Assembly (NCBI RefSeq): GCF_012273515.2
Contig: NZ_CP050975.2
Location: 5,766,001 to 5,830,000, forward strand
Source of the DNA: Streptomyces sp. RPA4-2
GTDB lineage: Bacteria; Actinomycetota; Actinomycetes; Streptomycetales; Streptomycetaceae
DNA length: 64,000 nt
Direction: 5' to 3'
The notes beneath the pieces are model-generated. The model made no database searches and had not been told where the DNA came from. It saw nothing but the letters and a program-made list of their open reading frames with translations. Numbering within the stretch: position 1 is the stretch's first letter; every line of letters begins with the position of its first letter. This document shows positions 10,436 through 20,830 of this stretch, one piece after another. The position numbers were made by a program, and so were the translations under genes.

Positions 10436-11149
10436 ATGAACTCACGCCAGCGCCGCGGCGTCATCCTGCTGGTCCTCTCGGTCCTGTGCGCCCTGGGCGC
10501 CTTCGCCGGAGTGCTCTCGGTGATCCGCGACGTGAACTCCAAGGTCGGCCCGGAGGTCTCGGCGTACCGCCTGAAGGACGACATCGCGCCCTACAAGGAA
10601 CTGACGGCCGACCAGTTCCAGAAGATCTCGATGCCCGAGCGCTGGCTGTCCTCCACGGCCGTCACCGACCTCTCCCGGATCCGCGGGAAGATCGCCGTCA
10701 CCAAGCTGGAGAAGGGCTCCCTGCTCCAGAGCGACATGATCGTGGACCGGCCCGCGCTGGAGGCCGGCCAGCAGGAGATCGCCATCATGATCGACGCCGC
10801 GACCGGTGTGGCCGGAAAGATCGACCCGGGAGCGCGGGTCAACATCTACGCCACCTTCAAGGCCGAGAACGACAAGCAGAAGGACCAGTCCAAGGTCATC
10901 GTGGCGAACGCGCGCGTCATCGACGTCGGCAGACTCACCGCCCTCGACCCCGGCCAGTCCAGCGCCGAACGCAGCCGCACCGCCACCCAGGCCGTCCCCA
11001 TCACCTTCGCGCTCGACACCGCCGACGCCCAACGAGTCGCGTACGCCGAGTCCTTCGCGACCCACGTCCGGCTCGCCCTGGTCGCGGGCGGCTCCGACAC
11101 CACCGTCGCCCCCGGCGAGCGTACGTACACCCTCGACCAGGACAAGTAG
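10436..11149 (+). CDS. cpaB: CpaB/RcpC-type Flp pilus assembly protein (SAF domain)
   Basis: The 237-residue product has one N-terminal membrane segment (GVILLVLSVLCALGAFAGVL). A SAF-like domain with APYKELTADQF and the block ITKLEKGSLL-type follows, then a beta-rich domain typical of CpaB/RcpC. In Tad systems this envelope protein supports assembly or stability of the Flp pilus. The stop codon overlaps an AGGAGG that serves the following 10-codon minicistron. The preceding 213 bases are repetitive CAGCACC-like sequence without a gene. Confidence 0.85.
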   Translation: MNSRQRRGVILLVLSVLCALGAFAGVLSVIRDVNSKVGPEVSAYRLKDDIAPYKELTADQFQKISMPERWLSSTAVTDLSRIRGKIAVTKLEKGSLLQSDMIVDRPALEAGQQEIAIMIDAATGVAGKIDPGARVNIYATFKAENDKQKDQSKVIVANARVIDVGRLTALDPGQSSAERSRTATQAVPITFALDTADAQRVAYAESFATHVRLALVAGGSDTTVAPGERTYTLDQDK

Positions 11150-11159
11150 GAGGCCGCGC

Positions 11160-11192
11160 ATGAGGTCCACGCCCCCGGGGCCGTGCCGATGA
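11160..11192 (+). CDS. Ten-codon minicistron coupling cpaB to the TadZ gene
   Basis: AGGAGG at 11148-11153 is followed after six bases by ATG 11160 and ten codons (MRSTPPGPCR). The TGA at 11190-11192 overlaps the ATG of the next gene as ATGA. The downstream ATG has no good ribosome-binding site of its own, so ribosomes ending here could re-initiate there. This is read from sequence only. Confidence 0.4.
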   Translation: MRSTPPGPCR

Positions 11193-12805
11193 CCATCCGT
11201 ATCCTCCCGGCCGTCGGCGACATCGACTCCGCCCGAGCACTCACCACCCTGCTCAGCCAGCTCGCCGACGCCGAACCCGCCCCACCCGTCGCCGACTCCA
11301 CCGCCCTCCTCGACACCCTCGCCCGGCTCGCGGCGGAGTCGCTCGACGAGCTGCCCGAGGTCGTCCTCGTCCACGAACGCATCGGTCCCGTCCCGGCGTT
11401 GGACCTCATCCGCGATCTGGTGCTGCGCTTCCCCGCGGTCGGCGTCGTCCTCATCACGGCCGACCCCGGCACCGGCGTCCTCACCGCCGCCATGGACTCC
11501 GGGGCGCGCGGCATCATCGGCCTGCCGCTCGGCTACGACGCCCTCGCCGAACGGGTCCAGGCCGCGGCCGGATGGTCGCTCGGCATGCGGCGCCACCTCG
11601 GCAGCGGTACGCCCGAGCTGTACACGGGCCCCGGCGGCACCGTCGTCACGGTCACCGGCGCGAAGGGCGGCGTCGGCACGACCGTGACAGCGGTCCAGAT
11701 CGCCCTGGCGTCGAAGGCGTCGGGGCGGGACGTGGCCCTGGTGGACCTCGACCTCCAGTCCGGCGACGTCGCCTCGTACCTGGACGTGCAGTTCCGCCGG
11801 TCGGTCGCCGACCTCGCCGGGATCAGTGACATCAACCCGCGGGTCCTCCAGGACGCCGTCTACCTCCACGACAGCGGCGTCGGCCTGCTGCTCGCCCCGG
11901 CCGAGGGCGAGCGCGGCGAGGAGGTCACGGACCGGGTGACGCGCCAGGTGCTGTCGGTCCTGCGCTCCCGCCACGACGTCGTGATCGTCGACTGCGGCTC
12001 CCAGATGAACTCCGCGACCGCGGCGGCCGTGGAGATGGCCGACCAGGCGCTGCTCCTCGTCACCCCGGACGTCGTGGCCGTCCGCGCCGCCAAACGCATG
12101 GTCCGTATGTGGGACCGCCTCCAGATCCGCAAGGCGGAGGAGACGACCACGGTCGTCAACCGGTTCGCCCGCGGTACGGAGATCCAGCCCTCCCTGGTCC
12201 AACGCGTCACCGGCACCAAAGTCGCGAGCGCGGCGGTCCCCGCCGCCTTCAAGGAGCTCCAGTCCGTCGTGGACGCGGGCCGCCTCCAGGACCTGGACGC
12301 CCGCTCCACCGTCAAACAGGCGCTGTGGTCACTGGCGGCGGAACTGGGACTGGTGGTCGCCCAGGAGGGCGGGGGCGGCGGCCGGCGCCGCAAGGCCTCC
12401 CCGGACCGGGGGACGTCGGCGCTGCGCAGGAGGGGCGGCGACCGGGGCGCGGTGACCCTGGAGTTCGCCGGCATGTTCCCGATCCTGCTGGTCGTGATGA
12501 CGATCCTGTGGCAGTGCGTGCTGTACGGCTACTCGTACTCGCTGGCCGGGAACGCGGCGGACGAGGCGGCGCGCGCGGCCACGGCGGCCTACGCGGTCGA
12601 CGGTGACGTCGGCGGCGCGTGCCGGACGGCGGGCAGCAGGCATCTGCCGGGCTCCTGGAGCGACGCGGGCATCGGCTGCGCTCCGGCGGGCTCGGTGATG
12701 AGGGCCACCGTCGACGTCGACGTCCCGCTCTTCTTCCCGGGCTTCGACGCGGGGTGGCACGTGCGAGGGACGGCGGGCGCGGCGCTGGAGGGGGACGTCG
12801 GATGA
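11189..12805 (+). CDS. TadZ/CpaE-like ATPase fused to a TadE-like pseudopilin
   Basis: From ATG 11189 (or GTG 11183) the product has 538 residues. Residues 1-130 form a receiver-like domain without phospho-acceptor pattern. About 145-395 is the MinD/ParA-type ATPase with deviant Walker A GAKGGVGTT (K159) and VALVDLDLQSGD, as in TadZ/CpaE proteins that place the pilus machine. After a Gly/Arg linker comes RGAVTLEFAGMFPILLVV, a class III prepilin motif with cleavage expected between G420 and A421 and Glu at +5. A 118-residue TadE-like pseudopilin follows. Normally these are two genes. The 3' end overlaps the next TadE-like gene by ATGA. Confidence 0.88.
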   Translation: MTIRILPAVGDIDSARALTTLLSQLADAEPAPPVADSTALLDTLARLAAESLDELPEVVLVHERIGPVPALDLIRDLVLRFPAVGVVLITADPGTGVLTAAMDSGARGIIGLPLGYDALAERVQAAAGWSLGMRRHLGSGTPELYTGPGGTVVTVTGAKGGVGTTVTAVQIALASKASGRDVALVDLDLQSGDVASYLDVQFRRSVADLAGISDINPRVLQDAVYLHDSGVGLLLAPAEGERGEEVTDRVTRQVLSVLRSRHDVVIVDCGSQMNSATAAAVEMADQALLLVTPDVVAVRAAKRMVRMWDRLQIRKAEETTTVVNRFARGTEIQPSLVQRVTGTKVASAAVPAAFKELQSVVDAGRLQDLDARSTVKQALWSLAAELGLVVAQEGGGGGRRRKASPDRGTSALRRRGGDRGAVTLEFAGMFPILLVVMTILWQCVLYGYSYSLAGNAADEAARAATAAYAVDGDVGGACRTAGSRHLPGSWSDAGIGCAPAGSVMRATVDVDVPLFFPGFDAGWHVRGTAGAALEGDVG

Positions 12806-13209
12806 CGGCCCTCGTGGAACCGACGCGGACGCGGAAGCGGTGGCCCGGGCCGAAGCGGCGGCCGCGGCGTCGCCTCCGGGACGACCGGGGCGTCTCCATG
12901 CTGGAGTTCGCCGGATTCCTGCCCATCCTGCTGGTCATCGGAATGGCCACCATCCAGCTCGGCCTCATCGGATACGGGATCAACCAGGCCGGTTCCGGCG
13001 CGCGAGCCGCCGCCCGGGTCGCCTCCCAGGGCGGCGACGGCGGGGCGGCGGGACAGGCCGCGGTGAGCGGATGGCTGGACCCGCGCGTCGACCCCGCACC
13101 GGGCCCCGACCTCACCACCGCCACCGTCACCGTCCAGGTCCCCGGGGTCATCCCCCTCTTCGGCCCCTACACCGTCACCCGCCGCGCCACCATGCCCACC
13201 GACGACTGA
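12802..13209 (+). CDS. TadE-like pseudopilin
   Basis: ATG 12802 overlaps the preceding stop (ATGA) and follows GGAGGGGG. The 135-residue product has a 28-residue basic leader ending in DDRG, then VSMLEFAGFLPILLVIGMATI. Cleavage is expected after the Gly with Glu at +5, followed by the hydrophobic pilin helix. Minor pilins of this kind help initiate or tip the Flp fibre. It closely resembles the C-terminal module of the preceding fusion protein, so the two are paralogues. Confidence 0.85.
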   Translation: MTALVEPTRTRKRWPGPKRRPRRRLRDDRGVSMLEFAGFLPILLVIGMATIQLGLIGYGINQAGSGARAAARVASQGGDGGAAGQAAVSGWLDPRVDPAPGPDLTTATVTVQVPGVIPLFGPYTVTRRATMPTDD

Positions 13210-13265: not shown

Positions 13266-14606
13266 ATGAGCCTGCGATCCCGACTGGCCACCCCCGACGA
13301 GGGAGGCCCCGCCCGCGAGGACGGACACCTCGTCGCCGTCTACCGCGCCAAGCTCCTCGAGGAGATCGACCTCGCCGAGATGTCGAGCCTGGCGGCGGCC
13401 GAACGACGGGTGCGCCTGGAGCGCGTACTCGGCCACATCATCAGCCGCGAAGGCCCCGTCCTCTCCTCCGCCGAACGCTCCCAGCTGATCCGCCGGGTCG
13501 TCGACGAGGCCCTCGGACTCGGCGTCCTCGAACCCCTGCTCGCCGACGCGTCGATCACCGAGATCATGGTCAACGGCCCGGACTCGATCTTCGTGGAGCG
13601 GGCGGGCCGGGTCGAACAGCTCCCGCTCCGCTTCGCCTCCACCGAACAGCTCATGCAGACCATCGAACGCATCGTCTCCACGGTCAACCGCCGCGTCGAC
13701 GAGTCCAACCCGATGGTCGACGCCCGCCTCCCCACCGGCGAACGCGTCAACGTCATCATCCCGCCGCTCGCCCTCACCGGCCCCACGCTCACCATCCGCC
13801 GCTTCCCCCGCGCCTACACCCTGCCCGAGCTCATCGGCCTCGGCTCGCTCGACGAGCAGATGCTGATGCTCCTCGCCGCGTTCGTACGCGCCCGCTTCAA
13901 CCTGATCGTCAGCGGCGGCACGGGCAGCGGGAAGACCACCCTCCTCAACGCGCTCTCCGGACTCATCCCGTCCCACGAACGCATCATCACCATCGAGGAC
14001 TCCGCCGAGCTCCAGCTCCAGCAGGAACACGTCATCCGCCTGGAGTCCCGGCCCCCGAACGTCGAGGGCAAGGGCCAGATCACCATCCGCGACCTGGTCC
14101 GCAACTCCCTGCGCATGCGCCCCGACCGCATCATCGTCGGTGAGGTCCGCGGCGGGGAGACCCTCGACATGCTGCAGGCCATGTCGACCGGCCACGACGG
14201 CTCGCTCGCGACGGTCCACGCGAACTCCGCGGAGGACGCCCTCATGCGGCTCCAGACCCTCGGCTCGATGTCCGAGGTCCTGATCCCCTTCGAGGCGCTG
14301 AAGGACCAGATCAACTCGGCCGTCGACGTGGTCGTCCAGCTGTCCCGGCACGCCGACGGCTCCCGCAGGATCACCGAGATCGCCCTGCTGGTCTCGCACG
14401 GCCGTGAACAGTTCCGGGTCGTCCCCGTCACCCGTTTCGTCCCGCGCCCCGTCGGCCCCGACCGTGTCGTCCACGGCCGCTTCGAGCACCTTCCGCTGCC
14501 CCGTCCGGTCGCCGAGAAGCTGTACGTCGCCAACGAGCCGCTGCCGCCCGCCTTCGGCGTCGTCGAGGTCCTGGACGCGCTCGACCCCAGGCAGGCCATC
14601 GGATGA
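13266..14606 (+). CDS. tadA: TadA/CpaF secretion ATPase
   Basis: The 446-residue protein is the hexameric motor of the Tad pilus, on the cytoplasmic face of the membrane. The N-terminal domain contains ITEIMVNGPDSIFVERAGR. The ATPase core shows Walker A SGGTGSGKTTLLNAL (K223), an Asp box EDSAELQLQQEH, Walker B DRIIVGEVRGGETLDMLQAM and the His box STGHDGSLATVHAN. All key residues are intact. GGGAGGAG precedes the ATG. It is followed 25 bases later by tadB. Confidence 0.95.
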   Translation: MSLRSRLATPDEGGPAREDGHLVAVYRAKLLEEIDLAEMSSLAAAERRVRLERVLGHIISREGPVLSSAERSQLIRRVVDEALGLGVLEPLLADASITEIMVNGPDSIFVERAGRVEQLPLRFASTEQLMQTIERIVSTVNRRVDESNPMVDARLPTGERVNVIIPPLALTGPTLTIRRFPRAYTLPELIGLGSLDEQMLMLLAAFVRARFNLIVSGGTGSGKTTLLNALSGLIPSHERIITIEDSAELQLQQEHVIRLESRPPNVEGKGQITIRDLVRNSLRMRPDRIIVGEVRGGETLDMLQAMSTGHDGSLATVHANSAEDALMRLQTLGSMSEVLIPFEALKDQINSAVDVVVQLSRHADGSRRITEIALLVSHGREQFRVVPVTRFVPRPVGPDRVVHGRFEHLPLPRPVAEKLYVANEPLPPAFGVVEVLDALDPRQAIG

Positions 14607-14631
14607 CCCCCACGACCGAGAGGAGCGAGCC

Positions 14632-15573
14632 GTGAACAACCCCGCCGTCCTGGCCCTCGGCGCCACCGTCCTGTGCGGCACCCTCGCCGTCGCGGGCGTG
14701 CACACGTACGCCTCCGGGCGCGCCCAGCGCCAGGCCCTCGTGGACCGCCTCGCCGGCGGCGGCCCGCTGCGCACGGCCGCCGGCCGCGTACGCCGCTTCG
14801 CCGCCGTCGACCGCCGGCTGCGCCGCACCCGTCTCGGCCGCACCATCCACCTGCGTCTGTCGGCGACGGGCCTCGACGTGACGGCGGGCGAGTTCGCCAC
14901 CTACGTCACCGCCGTCGTCGTCGCGCTGTGGCTGATCGCCGCCTCGACGCTGGCCCCCTTCTTCGGCCCGATCGCCGCCCTGGTCGGGGTGTGGAGCGCG
15001 GTCATATTCCTCAACTGGCAGCGACAGAAACGCATCGAGGCCTTCATCGGTCAACTCCCCGACGTGGCGAGGCTGCTGGCCAACGCGACCGCCGCCGGCC
15101 TTGCCATGCGGACCGCGCTGGCGATGGCCGCGGAGGAGCTGGAGAACCCGGCGGGCGAGGAACTCGCCCACGTGGCAGACCAGTTGATGATGGGGCGCAC
15201 CATCGACGACGCCCTCGGCGAGCTCTCCGAGCGGCTCCCCTCCCGCGAACTGATCGTCCTGGTCACCACACTCGTCCTCGCCAACAAGGCGGGCGGCTCG
15301 GTCGTCAGCTCCCTGCGCAACCTCACCCAGACCCTGGAGGACCGCAAGGAGACCCGCCGCGAGGTCCGCACGATGCTCTCCGAGGTCAACGCGACGGCCT
15401 TCACGGTCCCGCTGCTCGGCCTCGGCTCGCTGCTCCTGATCAACTCCTCGAACGCGGGCGCGCTCGCCCGCGTCACGGGCTCCGGCCTCGGCCAGGCCCT
15501 CGTCCTGATCTCGCTGGGCCTGTACACCGTCGGCTTCTTCGTCATCCGCCGCCTCGGCAAGATCGAAGTCTGA
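14632..15573 (+). CDS. tadB: TadB inner-membrane pilus assembly protein
   Basis: GTG 14632 follows GAGAGGAGCG and gives 313 residues. The type II/IV secretion GspF-like domain is seen around QLPDVARLLANATAAGLAMRTALAMAAEELENPAGEE, with conserved LPSRELIVLVTTLVLANKAGG. Four membrane segments are predicted: one at the N-terminus, one near residue 90-115 and two at the C-terminus. TadB and TadC form the platform through which TadA energy drives Flp subunits outward. Confidence 0.92.
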   Translation: MNNPAVLALGATVLCGTLAVAGVHTYASGRAQRQALVDRLAGGGPLRTAAGRVRRFAAVDRRLRRTRLGRTIHLRLSATGLDVTAGEFATYVTAVVVALWLIAASTLAPFFGPIAALVGVWSAVIFLNWQRQKRIEAFIGQLPDVARLLANATAAGLAMRTALAMAAEELENPAGEELAHVADQLMMGRTIDDALGELSERLPSRELIVLVTTLVLANKAGGSVVSSLRNLTQTLEDRKETRREVRTMLSEVNATAFTVPLLGLGSLLLINSSNAGALARVTGSGLGQALVLISLGLYTVGFFVIRRLGKIEV

Positions 15574-15589
15574 GGAAGGAGGGATCACG

Positions 15590-16480
15590 TTGCTCCCCCT
15601 GCTGCTCGCCCTCGTGATGGCCGCCGCCGTCGCGGGCGCCCTGCTGGGCATCCGCATGATCCGCGCCGACGCCAAACTGCCCAGCGACCTCGCGCTCGCC
15701 CTGGAGGTCGGCGGAACCCGCGTCTCCAAGGCGGAGTCCGCCGTCGACCGCCTCGGCATGCGCTTCGCCCCCACGGTGCTGCGCCTGATGGGCCCCCGCC
15801 GCGTCGACGCCAAACGCCGGCGCATAGACATGGCGGGCAACCCCGGCGGCCTGACGCTCAACCGCTATGCAGCGCGCCGCGCGGTGTACGGCATCTTCGG
15901 CGTCCTGCTGGGCCTGATCTTCCTCACCAACGGCCGGCTCCTGTTCGCCGCGCTCTCACTGACCTTCGGCCTGGTCGCCGCCGACGCCCTCATCTGGCAG
16001 GCCGTCCGCGAACGCAAGGAGGCCATCGACCGCATCCTCCCCGACTTCCTCGACGTCCTCGCCGTCGTCGTCTCGGCGGGTCTCGGCTTCCGCCAGGCCC
16101 TGGACCGCGTCGCGGAGAAGTACGAGGGGCCGTGGGCCGACGAACTGCGCATCACACTGCGCCAGATGGACATGGGCGTCAGCCGTCGCCAGGCCTTCGA
16201 CGAGCTGCGCAGGCGCAACTCCTCCGAACAGGTCGCCCAGTTCGTGTCGGCACTGCAGCAGGGCGAGGAACTCGGCTCCCCGATCGCCGAGACCCTGATC
16301 CAGCTCGCCACGGACATGCGCCGCACGGACGCCCAGAACGCCCGCCGCCGCGCGGCCAAGACCATCCCGAAGGCGACGATGGTCACCCTCGTCTTCATGC
16401 TCCCGGCGACGATGATCCTGATCGCCACGGGAATGTTCCTGGGGTCGGGCACGAACTTCGGCTCGATCCTGGGCCGCTGA
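15590..16480 (+). CDS. tadC: TadC inner-membrane pilus assembly protein
   Basis: The start is a TTG at 15590, supported by GGAAGGAGGG seven bases upstream; no ATG or GTG nearby fits better. The 296-residue product has an N-terminal membrane anchor, a central pair of helices and the GspF-like domain DFLDVLAVVVSAGLGFRQALDRVAEKYEGPWADEL. A C-terminal hydrophobic segment (LVFMLPATMILIATGMFLG) completes it. It partners with TadB. The last base of its stop codon is the first base of the next gene's ATG. Confidence 0.92.
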   Translation: MLPLLLALVMAAAVAGALLGIRMIRADAKLPSDLALALEVGGTRVSKAESAVDRLGMRFAPTVLRLMGPRRVDAKRRRIDMAGNPGGLTLNRYAARRAVYGIFGVLLGLIFLTNGRLLFAALSLTFGLVAADALIWQAVRERKEAIDRILPDFLDVLAVVVSAGLGFRQALDRVAEKYEGPWADELRITLRQMDMGVSRRQAFDELRRRNSSEQVAQFVSALQQGEELGSPIAETLIQLATDMRRTDAQNARRRAAKTIPKATMVTLVFMLPATMILIATGMFLGSGTNFGSILGR

Positions 16481-17934
16481 TGAACACCCGCCGTACGCCC
16501 CCGCCCTGGCTGTCGCCTCCCGCGCCGCACCGGCCGTGGGCGGCCTCACCCGGCCGGCTGTGGGCCCGGCTGATCCGGCCGTGGGCGTCGGCGGAGCGGG
16601 AGCGGGCGGGGGAAGCCGGGGAGACGGCGGCGTCGAGCTGGCCCGGTGGCGCGGGCCCCGGCTATCTGGCCGACGACGCCCCCGCCCCCGGCAACGTCCG
16701 TCTCCAGCTCAACGCCCTCCAGGCCCTCTGCCGCCAGGCCTTCGCCGTCCGCCTCGCCGCGATCGCGATCGGCGCCCCCTTCGCGATGGCCAACGCGACC
16801 GACGGCCTGTCCCGTTACACGGTCCTGGCCGCCGCCGTCCTCGGCGTCATGGGCTCGTACGCCATGCTCAGGGACTGGGACCGCTTCGGCCCCCGCCTCC
16901 TCGCGCACCCCACCCTGATGGCCGTGGACCTGACCTTCGGCGCGGTGCTGCTCCTGACCGCGTCCCCCGCGTCCCCCCTCGCCTACGCGACGGTCTGCAC
17001 CCCGCTGCTGGCGGGCCTGCTGTACGGCTGGCGCGGCTCGGGCGTCTTCACGGGCCTCCAGCTGATCGTCCTGGTGACGGTGTACCGGGCTTGGCAGCAC
17101 CATCCGGGAGCCGGCGCCAACACCCTCCTGATCGCGGGGTTCTGCGTCGGCGCGGGCATCATCGGCGTCACCCTGCGCAACCTGATGTTCCGCTTCGGCA
17201 CGGCGAGCCAGGCACTGTCCGAGGCGAACTCCCGCCTCGCCGTCGCCGAGGCCGTCGAGTCGGAACGTGCGCGACTGGCACGCGAGATGCACGACTCGGT
17301 GGCGAAGACGCTGCACGGGCTCGCCCTGGCGGCGGAGGCGCTGGCCGCTTCGGCCTCGGCGGACGGTGCGGACCCGGGCACGCTGAAGCGCCAGGCGACG
17401 ACGGTGGCGGGGGCGGCCCGCCGGGCGGCGGCGGAGTCGCGTGACCTTCTGTCGGATCTGCGCCGCCAAGCCGACCACGCGACCTATGACACCGACGTCA
17501 TGGCCGAACTCAGTGCTTGCGTCGCCGAGTTCCAGGAGCGCACGCATCTCGTGACGACGCTCAGGCATCGGGGCGGGCGTCCGATCCTCCCGTTCGCCAC
17601 GACGCGTCAGGTACTTGCGATTGCTTCCGAGGCTTTGGAGAACGCGTTCCGCCACGCGGGAGCAAGGCGGGCTGAGGTCATGATCGACGTCTCGGAGGAC
17701 GAACTGGCCGTACGGGTGCAGGACGACGGAGAGGGCCTGCCCGTGGCACTTGTCCTGGATGACCTGACGAGAACCGGCCACTTCGGCTTGCTTGGCATGG
17801 CGGAACGGGCCGCGTCCCTGGGCGGCTGTCTCGACCTGAAGCGCTCTCCGCAAGGGGGGACGGAGGTCCATCTGTCCCTCCCCCTCGCCCAAGCCGTACC
17901 CCACACCCCCCAAGAGGAGGCCGCACATGCCTGA
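16480..17934 (+). CDS. Sensor histidine kinase (NarL/DesK type) embedded in the Tad locus
   Basis: This 484-residue product starts at ATG 16480. A Pro/Arg-rich tail precedes about five membrane segments between residues 85 and 245 with little extracellular loop. Next come the HisKA_3 box RARLAREMHDSVAKTLHGL (phospho-acceptor H271) and the HATPase domain with EALENAFRHAGA, DDGEGLP and GLLGMAERAASLGG. It should phosphorylate the response regulator encoded in the next gene, which overlaps it by 8 bases. The coupling to tadC by a one-base overlap suggests it regulates or monitors pilus assembly. Confidence 0.92.
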   Translation: MNTRRTPPPWLSPPAPHRPWAASPGRLWARLIRPWASAERERAGEAGETAASSWPGGAGPGYLADDAPAPGNVRLQLNALQALCRQAFAVRLAAIAIGAPFAMANATDGLSRYTVLAAAVLGVMGSYAMLRDWDRFGPRLLAHPTLMAVDLTFGAVLLLTASPASPLAYATVCTPLLAGLLYGWRGSGVFTGLQLIVLVTVYRAWQHHPGAGANTLLIAGFCVGAGIIGVTLRNLMFRFGTASQALSEANSRLAVAEAVESERARLAREMHDSVAKTLHGLALAAEALAASASADGADPGTLKRQATTVAGAARRAAAESRDLLSDLRRQADHATYDTDVMAELSACVAEFQERTHLVTTLRHRGGRPILPFATTRQVLAIASEALENAFRHAGARRAEVMIDVSEDELAVRVQDDGEGLPVALVLDDLTRTGHFGLLGMAERAASLGGCLDLKRSPQGGTEVHLSLPLAQAVPHTPQEEAAHA

Positions 17935-18658
17935 CCAGGCACTTTCCGGCCCGACCCTCCGTGTACTGGTGGCCGACGACAACCCCGTCGTCCGGGCCGG
18001 ACTGGTCGCGCTGCTCGGCGGCCATCCGGACATCGAGGTCGTCGCCCAGGCCGCGAACGGCGAGGACGCCGTTACTGCGGCGACTGCCCATCCGCCGGAC
18101 GTCGTCCTCCTCGACGTCCGCATGCCAGGTACGGACGGGCTCACCGCACTGCCCGAGCTGGCCCGGCTCGCCCCCGTGATGATGCTGACGTACAGCCGCG
18201 AACCCGAGGTCGCGGCCGAGGCGTTGCGTCGTGGCGCGGTCGGCTATCTCGTGCACGGCGAGTTCACGGTCGCTGAACTCATCATCGCAGTTAAGGAGTT
18301 GGGGCATCGTGGCCCCGTCTTCCCGGAATCGCTCGGTGTTTCGTACGAACCGAACGAAATCTCTTCGCATTTGCAATCGATTGTGGGACAGTCGTCAAGT
18401 CTCCGCTCCGGGCATGGAGCCATGCGGCGGCGTCGGGTTCCCAACCGTTTTGACTTCGGGCTGAGTTCAAGGGAGGTGGAGGTGATGGACCTCATCGCGG
18501 CCGGCATGAACAACGGTCAGATCGCCGCCGCCTGCTTCATCAGCGAGAAGACTGTCAAGAACCACATCAACCGCATCTTCGCGAAGTTGCACAGTTCCTC
18601 GCGCAGTGAAGCGATCGCTCACTGGTTGGGGACGGCGCGCAGGGGGTGGGGTCAATGA
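17927..18658 (+). CDS. LuxR-family response regulator, atypical receiver
   Basis: The 243-residue protein has a receiver domain at 1-125 with acidic pair D17/D18 and phospho-acceptor D63 (LLDVRMPG). A 60-residue linker and a GerE/LuxR HTH (LSSREVEVMDLIAAGMNNGQIAAACFISEKTVKNHINRIFAKL) follow. The conserved Lys after strand 5 is replaced: GYLVHGEF instead of GYLLK. The chemistry of activation may therefore differ. The linker, 18330-18470, has poorer third-position GC than the rest, as if less constrained. The next gene is the Flp pilin, a likely target. Confidence 0.92.
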   Translation: MPDQALSGPTLRVLVADDNPVVRAGLVALLGGHPDIEVVAQAANGEDAVTAATAHPPDVVLLDVRMPGTDGLTALPELARLAPVMMLTYSREPEVAAEALRRGAVGYLVHGEFTVAELIIAVKELGHRGPVFPESLGVSYEPNEISSHLQSIVGQSSSLRSGHGAMRRRRVPNRFDFGLSSREVEVMDLIAAGMNNGQIAAACFISEKTVKNHINRIFAKLHSSSRSEAIAHWLGTARRGWGQ

Positions 18659-18760
18659 CTCCACCCCGTGGAAGTTGGGTCCCTGGGCCCACCCGGAGTA
18701 GGCGTGCTATCACATACGGTGCTCGGGTTGGCATTGGTGTCGCGCGGGAGGACAGTGACG

Positions 18761-18961
18761 ATGAGCAAGTTCGACAGCTGGAAGCGGACTGTCGCCTCTC
18801 GGATACGGGGCGAGCGGCGGGATGCGGGAGCCGGGTTCGTGGAGTATGCGGGCCTGATGATCATCATTGCGGGGATCTTCACGTTGATCGACAGCCTGGG
18901 GCTGGACAACCTGATCTCGACGGCGATCCTCAACGCGGTCAACGATGTGATCGGCGGCTGA
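18761..18961 (+). CDS. Flp-type pilin
   Basis: The 66-residue product starts at ATG 18761. A basic leader of about 22 residues precedes the class III prepilin site, DAG/AGFVEYAGLMIIIAGIF, with Glu at +5 and Tyr at +6, which are hallmarks of Flp major pilins. The mature subunit of roughly 44 residues is one hydrophobic helix with a short tail. This would be the main fibre subunit. A 102-base gap with its own promoter probably allows high expression. Cleavage needs a TadV/CpaA peptidase, which is not encoded in this window. Confidence 0.92.
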   Translation: MSKFDSWKRTVASRIRGERRDAGAGFVEYAGLMIIIAGIFTLIDSLGLDNLISTAILNAVNDVIGG

Positions 18962-19566
18962 CCTCGGCGCAACTGCGGAGTGACGACGGGCAGACCCTCC
19001 CGATCTACATCTGGTTGACGGGGATCCTGCTCTTCGCCGCCTTAGCTTTCTTCGCGTTTGCCCTGGCAGCGTCCGCCCGCAATGGAGCTCAGTCCGCGGC
19101 GGACGCTGCGGCGTTGGCGGCAGCGCAGGACGCCCGTGACGAGCTGATGGACAAGCTCGGGGCCGCCATCGGTCAGGACGACAACTGGCTGGAGTGGCTC
19201 GACGGGGTACAGGGTCCTGATGGATTGGGGGCCGACGCCGCGGCCCAGCAGTTGGCTGCCGAGAACGACTCGACGCTTCGAGGCCTGCAGGCTGTCGAGA
19301 GGAACGGCTATCCCGGGTACCAGGCCGATATCCAGACCAACTACACGGTCGGCAGGTCGATCATTCCCGGCACCGAGACCAGGCACGCGACCGCGCACGC
19401 CGTCGCCGTCATCCAGCCGCGCTGTGACTTCGATCCGGCCGCGGACCCCAAGAAGCCCGTTGAGCTGAGCTGCGACGGCGAGACCGTCAACATCGACCCC
19501 GGAAATTTCGATCCGGTCGACCTTCCGGACGCGTCCGTTCTGTTCTCTGTGCATCTGGCCGAGTGA
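18958..19566 (+). CDS. TadG-like pseudopilin/pilus assembly protein with probable CTG start and a TTA codon
   Basis: The frame from 18958 to 19566 codes for DDGQTLPIYIWLTGILLFAALAFFAFALAAS, then QSAADAAALAAAQDA, typical of the TadG-like Tad pilin family, then a 150-residue outer part with two Cys. No ATG, GTG or TTG occurs in frame near the N-terminus. CTG 18958 overlaps the Flp stop as CTGA and is the best start, giving 202 residues. The codon at 19042-19044 is TTA, so expression should depend on the bldA leucyl-tRNA. The start is inference; the coding frame is secure. Confidence 0.85.
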   Translation: MTSAQLRSDDGQTLPIYIWLTGILLFAALAFFAFALAASARNGAQSAADAAALAAAQDARDELMDKLGAAIGQDDNWLEWLDGVQGPDGLGADAAAQQLAAENDSTLRGLQAVERNGYPGYQADIQTNYTVGRSIIPGTETRHATAHAVAVIQPRCDFDPAADPKKPVELSCDGETVNIDPGNFDPVDLPDASVLFSVHLAE

Positions 19567-20176: not shown

Positions 20177-20830
20177 ATGGCCCTCCCACCCCGCTCCGCC
20201 GCGACGACGCTCACGGCCCTCGCCGTACTGGTCGCCCTCGGTCTCCCCGGCCCGGCGTACGCCGACGGCACCGACCCCAGCGTGCCCCCGGGCAGCGTCA
20301 CCACGTCGCCTCCGCCTTCGGTGGACGCCACCAGCCCAGGCCTCAAACTCGCCGACGGCGCCACCCTCGCCCCCGCCAAGGTGCTGGACATCAAGTCGGT
20401 GGTGGAGGACCTCGGAGGGGAGGAGCGGCGTGAGGACACCAACTCGGACGTGACGTTCGCGCTGCAGGCCGAAGTCCTCTTCCCCAAGGACAGTTCGAAA
20501 CTGAACCCGGACGCCCGCGCGCGCATCGACGCGATCGCGGACGAGATCAAGGCTCAGAAGGCGACGACGGTCAGGGTCTTCGGTTTCACCGACGACCTCG
20601 GCTCGTACGCCCACGGCCTGACCCTCTCCAAGAAGCGCGCGGAGATCGTCCACGACGAGCTGGCGGCGGCGCTCGGTTCGACGGACGTCACCTTCGAGGT
20701 GCGTGGCTACAGCGAGGACTATCCGATCGCGGACAACACCTCGGAGCAGGGCCGCCGGAAGAACCGCCGTGTCGAGGTGACCTTCCCGCGCGGCGCGTCG
20801 AGCGGTACCTCGTCGGGGACCCAGAGCTGA
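20177..20830 (+). CDS. OmpA-like peptidoglycan-associated protein
   Basis: The 217-residue product has a signal peptide (ending near YADG), a Pro/Ser-rich spacer and an OmpA C-terminal-like domain. Visible motifs are EVLFPKDSSKLNPDARARIDAIADEI, VFGFTDDLGS, LSKKRAEIVHDEL and NTSEQGRRKNRRVEV. The domain binds the diaminopimelate peptide of peptidoglycan. In a Gram-positive cell it may anchor or gate the pilus at the wall. It follows the lipoprotein gene by two bases and is the last gene of the Tad operon. Confidence 0.88.
   Translation: MALPPRSAATTLTALAVLVALGLPGPAYADGTDPSVPPGSVTTSPPPSVDATSPGLKLADGATLAPAKVLDIKSVVEDLGGEERREDTNSDVTFALQAEVLFPKDSSKLNPDARARIDAIADEIKAQKATTVRVFGFTDDLGSYAHGLTLSKKRAEIVHDELAAALGSTDVTFEVRGYSEDYPIADNTSEQGRRKNRRVEVTFPRGASSGTSSGTQS

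Follow-up and report, generated by a model that had tools for sequence, protein, structure and literature searches.

The window, the whole stretch of 64,000 nucleotides from Streptomyces sp. RPA4-2 that was analysed, encodes a Tad/Flp pilus locus: genes for tadA, tadB and tadC were identified by Pfam together with pseudopilins. The locus resembles other Tad/Flp (type IVc) loci in carrying cpaB, tadA, tadB, tadC, two TadE-type pseudopilins, a TadG-like protein and a probable Flp, but tadZ and the first tadE form one gene, and the only A24 prepilin peptidase found is encoded outside the locus. The pilus is of a known kind, and the fused tadZ-tadE arrangement is a variant of it. The following features were identified.

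10436..11149, + strand: cpaB/rcpC (PF16976 and TIGR03177 above cut-off)
11189..12805, + strand: tadZ-tadE fusion gene, 538 aa (the longest frame, from GTG 11183, gives 540 aa)
11189..11602, + strand: N-terminal alpha/beta (receiver-like) domain of the TadZ half (AlphaFold2 elements E5 to H118-140)
11630..12361, + strand: MinD/ParA-type ATPase domain, model residues 150-393, deviant P-loop KGGVGTT (Pfam, AlphaFold2, Foldseek)
12368..12445, + strand: disordered Gly/Arg linker, net positive, with no in-frame ATG, GTG or TTG (pLDDT below 50, start scan, charge)
12446..12463, + strand: class III prepilin site G/AVTLE, with G420 at -1, A421 at +1 and E425 at +5 (sequence; predicted cut between 12448 and 12449)
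12449..12802, + strand: mature TadE-like pseudopilin, a long N-terminal helix followed by an alpha/beta head (PF07811, AlphaFold2)
12802..13209, + strand: second, separate TadE/TadF-type pseudopilin gene, starting in an ATGA overlap (PF07811 above cut-off)
13266..14606, + strand: tadA/cpaF extension ATPase (PF00437)
14404..15573, + strand: tadB platform protein, longest frame; the true start is probably after the tadA stop (PF00482)
15590..16480, + strand: tadC platform protein (PF19359, PF00482)
16132..17934, + strand: histidine kinase, longest frame overlapping tadC; the true start is probably further downstream (PF07730, PF02518)
17927..18658, + strand: LuxR-type response regulator (PF00072, PF00196)
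18668..18961, + strand: probable Flp major pilin, ATG about 18761, DAG/AGFVEYAG site (by eye)
18646..19566, + strand: TadG-like protein, longest frame, match at residues 115-162 (PF13400 above cut-off)
20177..20830, + strand: OmpA-family protein after the locus (PF00691)

The candidate Flp at 18668-18961 has no Pfam match, and no PF04964 match over cut-off was found anywhere in the genome.

The frame of the fusion gene is open on the + strand from GTG 11183 or ATG 11189 through TGA 12803-12805. Sequence comparison identified ATGACCATC or a near match in close relatives at the position of ATG 11189, which is therefore preferred over GTG 11183. Thus, the residue numbering of an earlier sequence-only reading (G420, A421, 538 aa) stands; analyses begun at GTG 11183 number residues two higher (G422, E427). 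At 11160-11192 of the window, a ten-codon frame follows a Shine-Dalgarno-like AGGAGG and has an ATGA overlap with the fusion start. The same small frame also occurs in locus L005, and translational coupling through the overlap is possible.

Pfam identified an AAA_31 (ParA-type) domain at residues 153-316, above cut-off, and TadE (PF07811) at 422-464 (33.1 bits against a cut-off of 22.9). The AlphaFold2 model (input alignment of 62 rows, mean pLDDT 88.4, pTM 0.51) contains, in order, an alpha/beta N-terminal domain, a MinD-like domain, the linker and a pilin shape. Residues 396-422 have pLDDT below 50 between confident parts, the disordered stretch stops at the prepilin site, and the pilin helix (422-471) is followed by C-terminal strands. 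The low pTM fits a model of parts without a fixed mutual arrangement. The top Foldseek match is 3fkq (entry title: NtrC-like two-domain protein), which we take to be the TadZ of Eubacterium rectale from Xu 2012. The match covers model residues 3-390, i.e., both domains of the TadZ half; unlike the window fusion, 3fkq is without a pilin part. Fold-match lists for this model are occupied by the ATPase domain, and in the VIA list 3fkq, the row covering both N-terminal domains, ranks below single-domain MinD/ParA chains. The first half of the protein therefore has the make-up of TadZ, a ParA/MinD-type ATPase domain preceded by an alpha/beta domain at the N-terminus (Pfam, AlphaFold2 and Foldseek), and this N-terminal domain is presumably receiver-like. 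The second half has a class III signal, with Gly at -1 and Glu at +5, ahead of a hydrophobic helix. The sequence-only reading had proposed an in-frame fusion of a TadZ-type protein with a TadE pseudopilin whose prepilin site is intact, and Pfam, AlphaFold2 and the G420/A421 site with its Glu at +5 bear this out.

That reading also called the first half an ATPase, a label that needs care. The MinD/ParA-type domain is present, but the P-loop is KGGVGTT, without the second lysine of the deviant Walker A motif (KGGxGK[TS]). This lysine is absent in 140/140 fused and 99/99 split TadZ loci (see below), so its loss tracks this type of TadZ and not the fusion. It is also absent in nine fusions from outside the host's class, whereas 11 of 12 distant matches that were judged by tail and frame length to be unfused have it (the twelfth, L280, does not). 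According to an excerpt of PMC10482377, the TadZ of E. rectale is intrinsically active as an ATPase although both lysines are lost, and the missing lysine is therefore not decisive against TadZ identity. ATP hydrolysis is a candidate activity of the window's TadZ half. Two NCBIfam models scored below their curated cut-offs: minD_bact (69 bits vs 212.9) and CpaE_hom_Actino (Ssd; 68.7 bits vs 154.45).

We classified 241 TadZ loci, of which 140 are fused, 99 split and two unclear (L103, at a contig end, and L246 of family f8, which is not fused). Because 80 of the 241 were selected for their similarity to the fused query, the set is biased to fused loci, and the 140 are not independent, since some species are in both collections (239 tree rows, 224 of them different). 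For 41 of the loci the fused call used a motif pattern and is partly dependent on that motif; the pattern missed L232, which was assigned by hand. An even view of the genus comes from 199 Streptomyces genomes, drawn evenly and searched, of which the first 80 (G001-G080) were classified: 19 are fused, 59 split (including the odd case L194) and two, G008 and G050 (82% complete), have no TadZ match at 1e-60. The source genome, which is fused, lies outside the resulting 78. Of the 296 genomes in the class sample, 53 matched at 1e-25, including 25 from other genera. The loci of 22 of these 25 were covered, the weak matches G260, G326 and G390 being left out, along with a second, weaker match in G480. 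In the phylum sample (296 genomes, 92 matching the profile at 1e-30), a full one-frame fusion was identified in nine genomes outside the host's class (families f47, f54, f69 and f85); one of these, G789, has a further near-full match, which was left out. Besides Streptomycetaceae, the fusion occurs in eight other families of the phylum, and the named fused genera are Streptomyces, Actinacidiphila and Wenjunlia. All five loci of families f26, f40 and f42 are fused, and family f17 has eight fused and eight split loci. A plasmid search gave no match at 1e-20.

The gene content downstream is much the same across fused loci. A second TadE comes next after the fusion in 131 of 132 testable loci (the miss is L058; seven loci are too short and L142 was left out), and a tadA P-loop lies downstream in 64 of 66 (misses L087 and L088; 73 too short). 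In L142 (G010) the fused frame appears to shift register inside TadE1 and continue into TadE2, as if a base had been gained or lost, and in L194 (G047) the TadZ frame overlaps a TadE1 that is in another frame. These odd single cases, with their apparent frame change into tadE2 and overlapping frames, are all that speaks for the fusion being a sequencing error or a decayed gene. We ruled that explanation out, its probability being close to nil, given conservation of the fusion across 140/241 loci, complete genomes among them, and nine families. The two-domain architecture, which had been put forward for a search across Streptomyces, is thus present in 19 of the 78 evenly sampled genomes with TadZ and in 140 of 241 loci overall. 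It is real, conserved and found in many Actinomycetota, and so more general than could be known from one sequence. The statement that TadZ and TadE are normally separate holds for the 59 split genomes of the 78, but not for the other 19 or for the eight further families.

The prepilin sites of the fused proteins were aligned with an HMM for which the mature portion of split TadE1 was the sole training material. All 140 fused proteins have Gly at -1 and all 140 have Glu at +5, and the distance from the last matched TadZ residue to this Gly is 14-270 codons (median 27). Position -3 is Asp in 135 of the 140, and position -2 is variable (R 105, K 13, S 7, A 5, Q 4, E 3, T 3). Split TadE1 keeps both residues in 98 of 98 aligned proteins (of 99); the fused site, conserved to the same degree, is therefore not relaxed. 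In the nine fusions outside the host's class, where sites were placed by eye (HMM placement was wrong in several), Gly at -1 occurs in 9/9 and Glu at +5 in 8/9, with Asp in L273. Some fused proteins (L101, L106, L107, L108 and L112) have very long Pro/Gly-rich linkers, the maximum being 270 codons.

The linker itself evolves as coding sequence in the fused frame, judging from pS of 0.257 against pN of 0.088 and from differences of 59/36/124 by codon position (20 disjoint pairs). This bears on whether TadE is mostly made from a start of its own, so that the fused frame would yield two proteins by two initiations. Split loci, which serve as the control, have a start within 40 codons of the site in 80 of 88 cases (of 99), with a Shine-Dalgarno match in 61 of 88. 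Fused loci do contain an in-frame ATG, GTG or TTG within 60 codons upstream of the site in 113/140 cases, at least 84 of these lying before the linker, and 16/140 have a start with a Shine-Dalgarno match of at least 5 bases. However, the linker is without any in-frame start codon in 111/140 fused loci, the window locus included, and only 13/140 have a linker start with a Shine-Dalgarno match of at least 4 bases. Startless linkers, together with the constraint on the linker in the fused frame, disfavour an internal start, which we consider very unlikely.

The genome contains three TadE matches over cut-off: the fusion, the adjacent gene and a third that belongs to a second tad locus. With all three accounted for, no free copy of the fusion's TadE was found in the genome. 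The second tad locus (G000:C1:5082000-5093000, L258) has a separate short TadE frame and a Flp-like small protein (by eye). One A24 prepilin peptidase was identified in the genome, about 473 kb from the fusion and outside the tad locus. At least one is encoded in 79 of 80 sampled Streptomyces genomes, and the exception, G008, is also without a TadZ match at 1e-60.

The computed picture is one open, translated-looking frame with both domains, an invariant site, wide conservation and a peptidase gene in the genome. We predict, with a probability of about three in four, that the product is a membrane-spanning precursor cut by the genome's single A24 peptidase, with a leader of about 420 residues. 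The topology, the cleavage, the equimolar output and a transient tethering are inferred as follows. One bitopic precursor would be made from the gene. Its TadZ half would remain cytoplasmic, a flexible basic linker (net charge +6 over residues 388-419, 538-aa numbering) would run to the membrane, and the TadE helix would insert with its head outside. Until cut, TadZ would be held at the membrane through its own pseudopilin. The sole A24 peptidase would then cut after G420 at the cytoplasmic face, giving free TadZ and mature TadE, and the latter may join TadE2 at the pilus base or tip, with Flp as the major pilin.

According to excerpts of one review, the prepilin Gly is critical for processing and prepilin leaders are 6-26 residues long (PMC4471445). 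The persistence of Gly at -1 therefore argues that the site is used, and its invariance in fused (140/140) and split (98/98) proteins alike favours real cleavage over mere tethering, although partial cutting would also preserve it. Against cleavage count the leader, at about 420 residues far outside the short-leader range, and the peptidase gene, about 473 kb away and not in the tad locus. A second review, also in excerpt, describes a cytoplasmic leader of variable length and a peptidase active site at the cytoplasmic face (PMC10191384); this would permit cleavage of a large leader, no more.

The much shorter known leaders (PMC4471445, excerpt) are also one argument for a fusion that is cut barely or not at all, in which TadE would be a permanent membrane anchor tethering TadZ to the pilus base. 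Further in its favour, TadZ precedes the strongest hydrophobic segment of the protein (19-residue mean 2.16 at residue 422, against 1.69 for the second-highest peak, at residue 73 inside the folded N-terminal domain), and the linker is disordered and basic. Yet an anchor needs no Gly at -1, and all 140 fused proteins have it behind linkers of 14-270 codons; moreover, 59 of the 78 sampled Streptomyces manage without a tether. We therefore regard a permanent tether as improbable and retain the cut precursor as the best reading.

Fused and split forms interchange on the TadZ tree. In a FastTree phylogeny of 239 TadZ domains, eight changes of the trait are needed, at least three of them forced. 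A more careful tree, made from 63 rows selected by identity minus the long-branched fused L240, L242 and L244 (60 rows), still has long-branch warnings and also gives eight changes, 7-8 in bootstraps, with at least four forced. A single fused clade, a group defined after the trait had been seen, was rejected overall (p-AU 0.00077) and within Streptomycetaceae (p-AU 0.00015, 48 rows). With the root set on the distant families, parsimony makes the root fused, which does not fix the direction of change. Such interchange is as expected if the halves end up separate either way. Neutral loss and gain of the stop between adjacent genes would also produce it, and a neutral view, in which the fusion follows stop loss and the parts are separated by the peptidase in any case, is consistent with these data too; the fusion would then be mechanistically tame.

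If the predicted cut is true, a prepilin peptidase takes a whole folded protein as leader, TadZ is physically tied to TadE, and the fusion gives cells a simple means of pairing a pilus positioner and the initiating subunit. The excerpts consulted do not settle whether TadE sits at the base or the tip of the pilus (PMC4322843, PMC12075869). A bolder version, against which we judge the odds to lean, makes the peptidase a polyprotein-processing switch in many Actinomycetota: the positioner would be made as the leader of the initiating pseudopilin, mark the site while attached, and be freed by the cut that admits the pseudopilin to the filament, setting positioning and initiation at 1:1. The repeated switching between fused and split forms provides natural paired strains for testing.

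A TadZ-TadE fusion was not found in the titles and abstract openings of the literature searched (for one query, the best 15 of 136). To our knowledge, neither the TadB-TadC nor the PilM-PilN fusion joins a cytoplasmic assembly protein to a pilin. Both resemble the window in that neighbouring pilus-assembly genes are fused, TadB-TadC in Micrococcus luteus (PMC4322843) and PilM-PilN in C. difficile (PMC6916266), as described in excerpts of these papers. In an excerpt on the M. tuberculosis flp operon, tadZ and tadE are listed as separate and non-adjacent, unlike the single gene of the window.

A tail motif running from DR[GA] to RR, similar to the region of the prepilin site, was identified in 58/91 split and 51/127 fused Streptomycetaceae loci, at the C-termini of split TadZ (e.g., L095 and L213) and in the linkers of fused loci. 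One idea is that the DRG-type tail of split TadZ may be a relic cleavage site. In family f17, seven of eight split TadZ tails have STRD[VM]SGFL instead.
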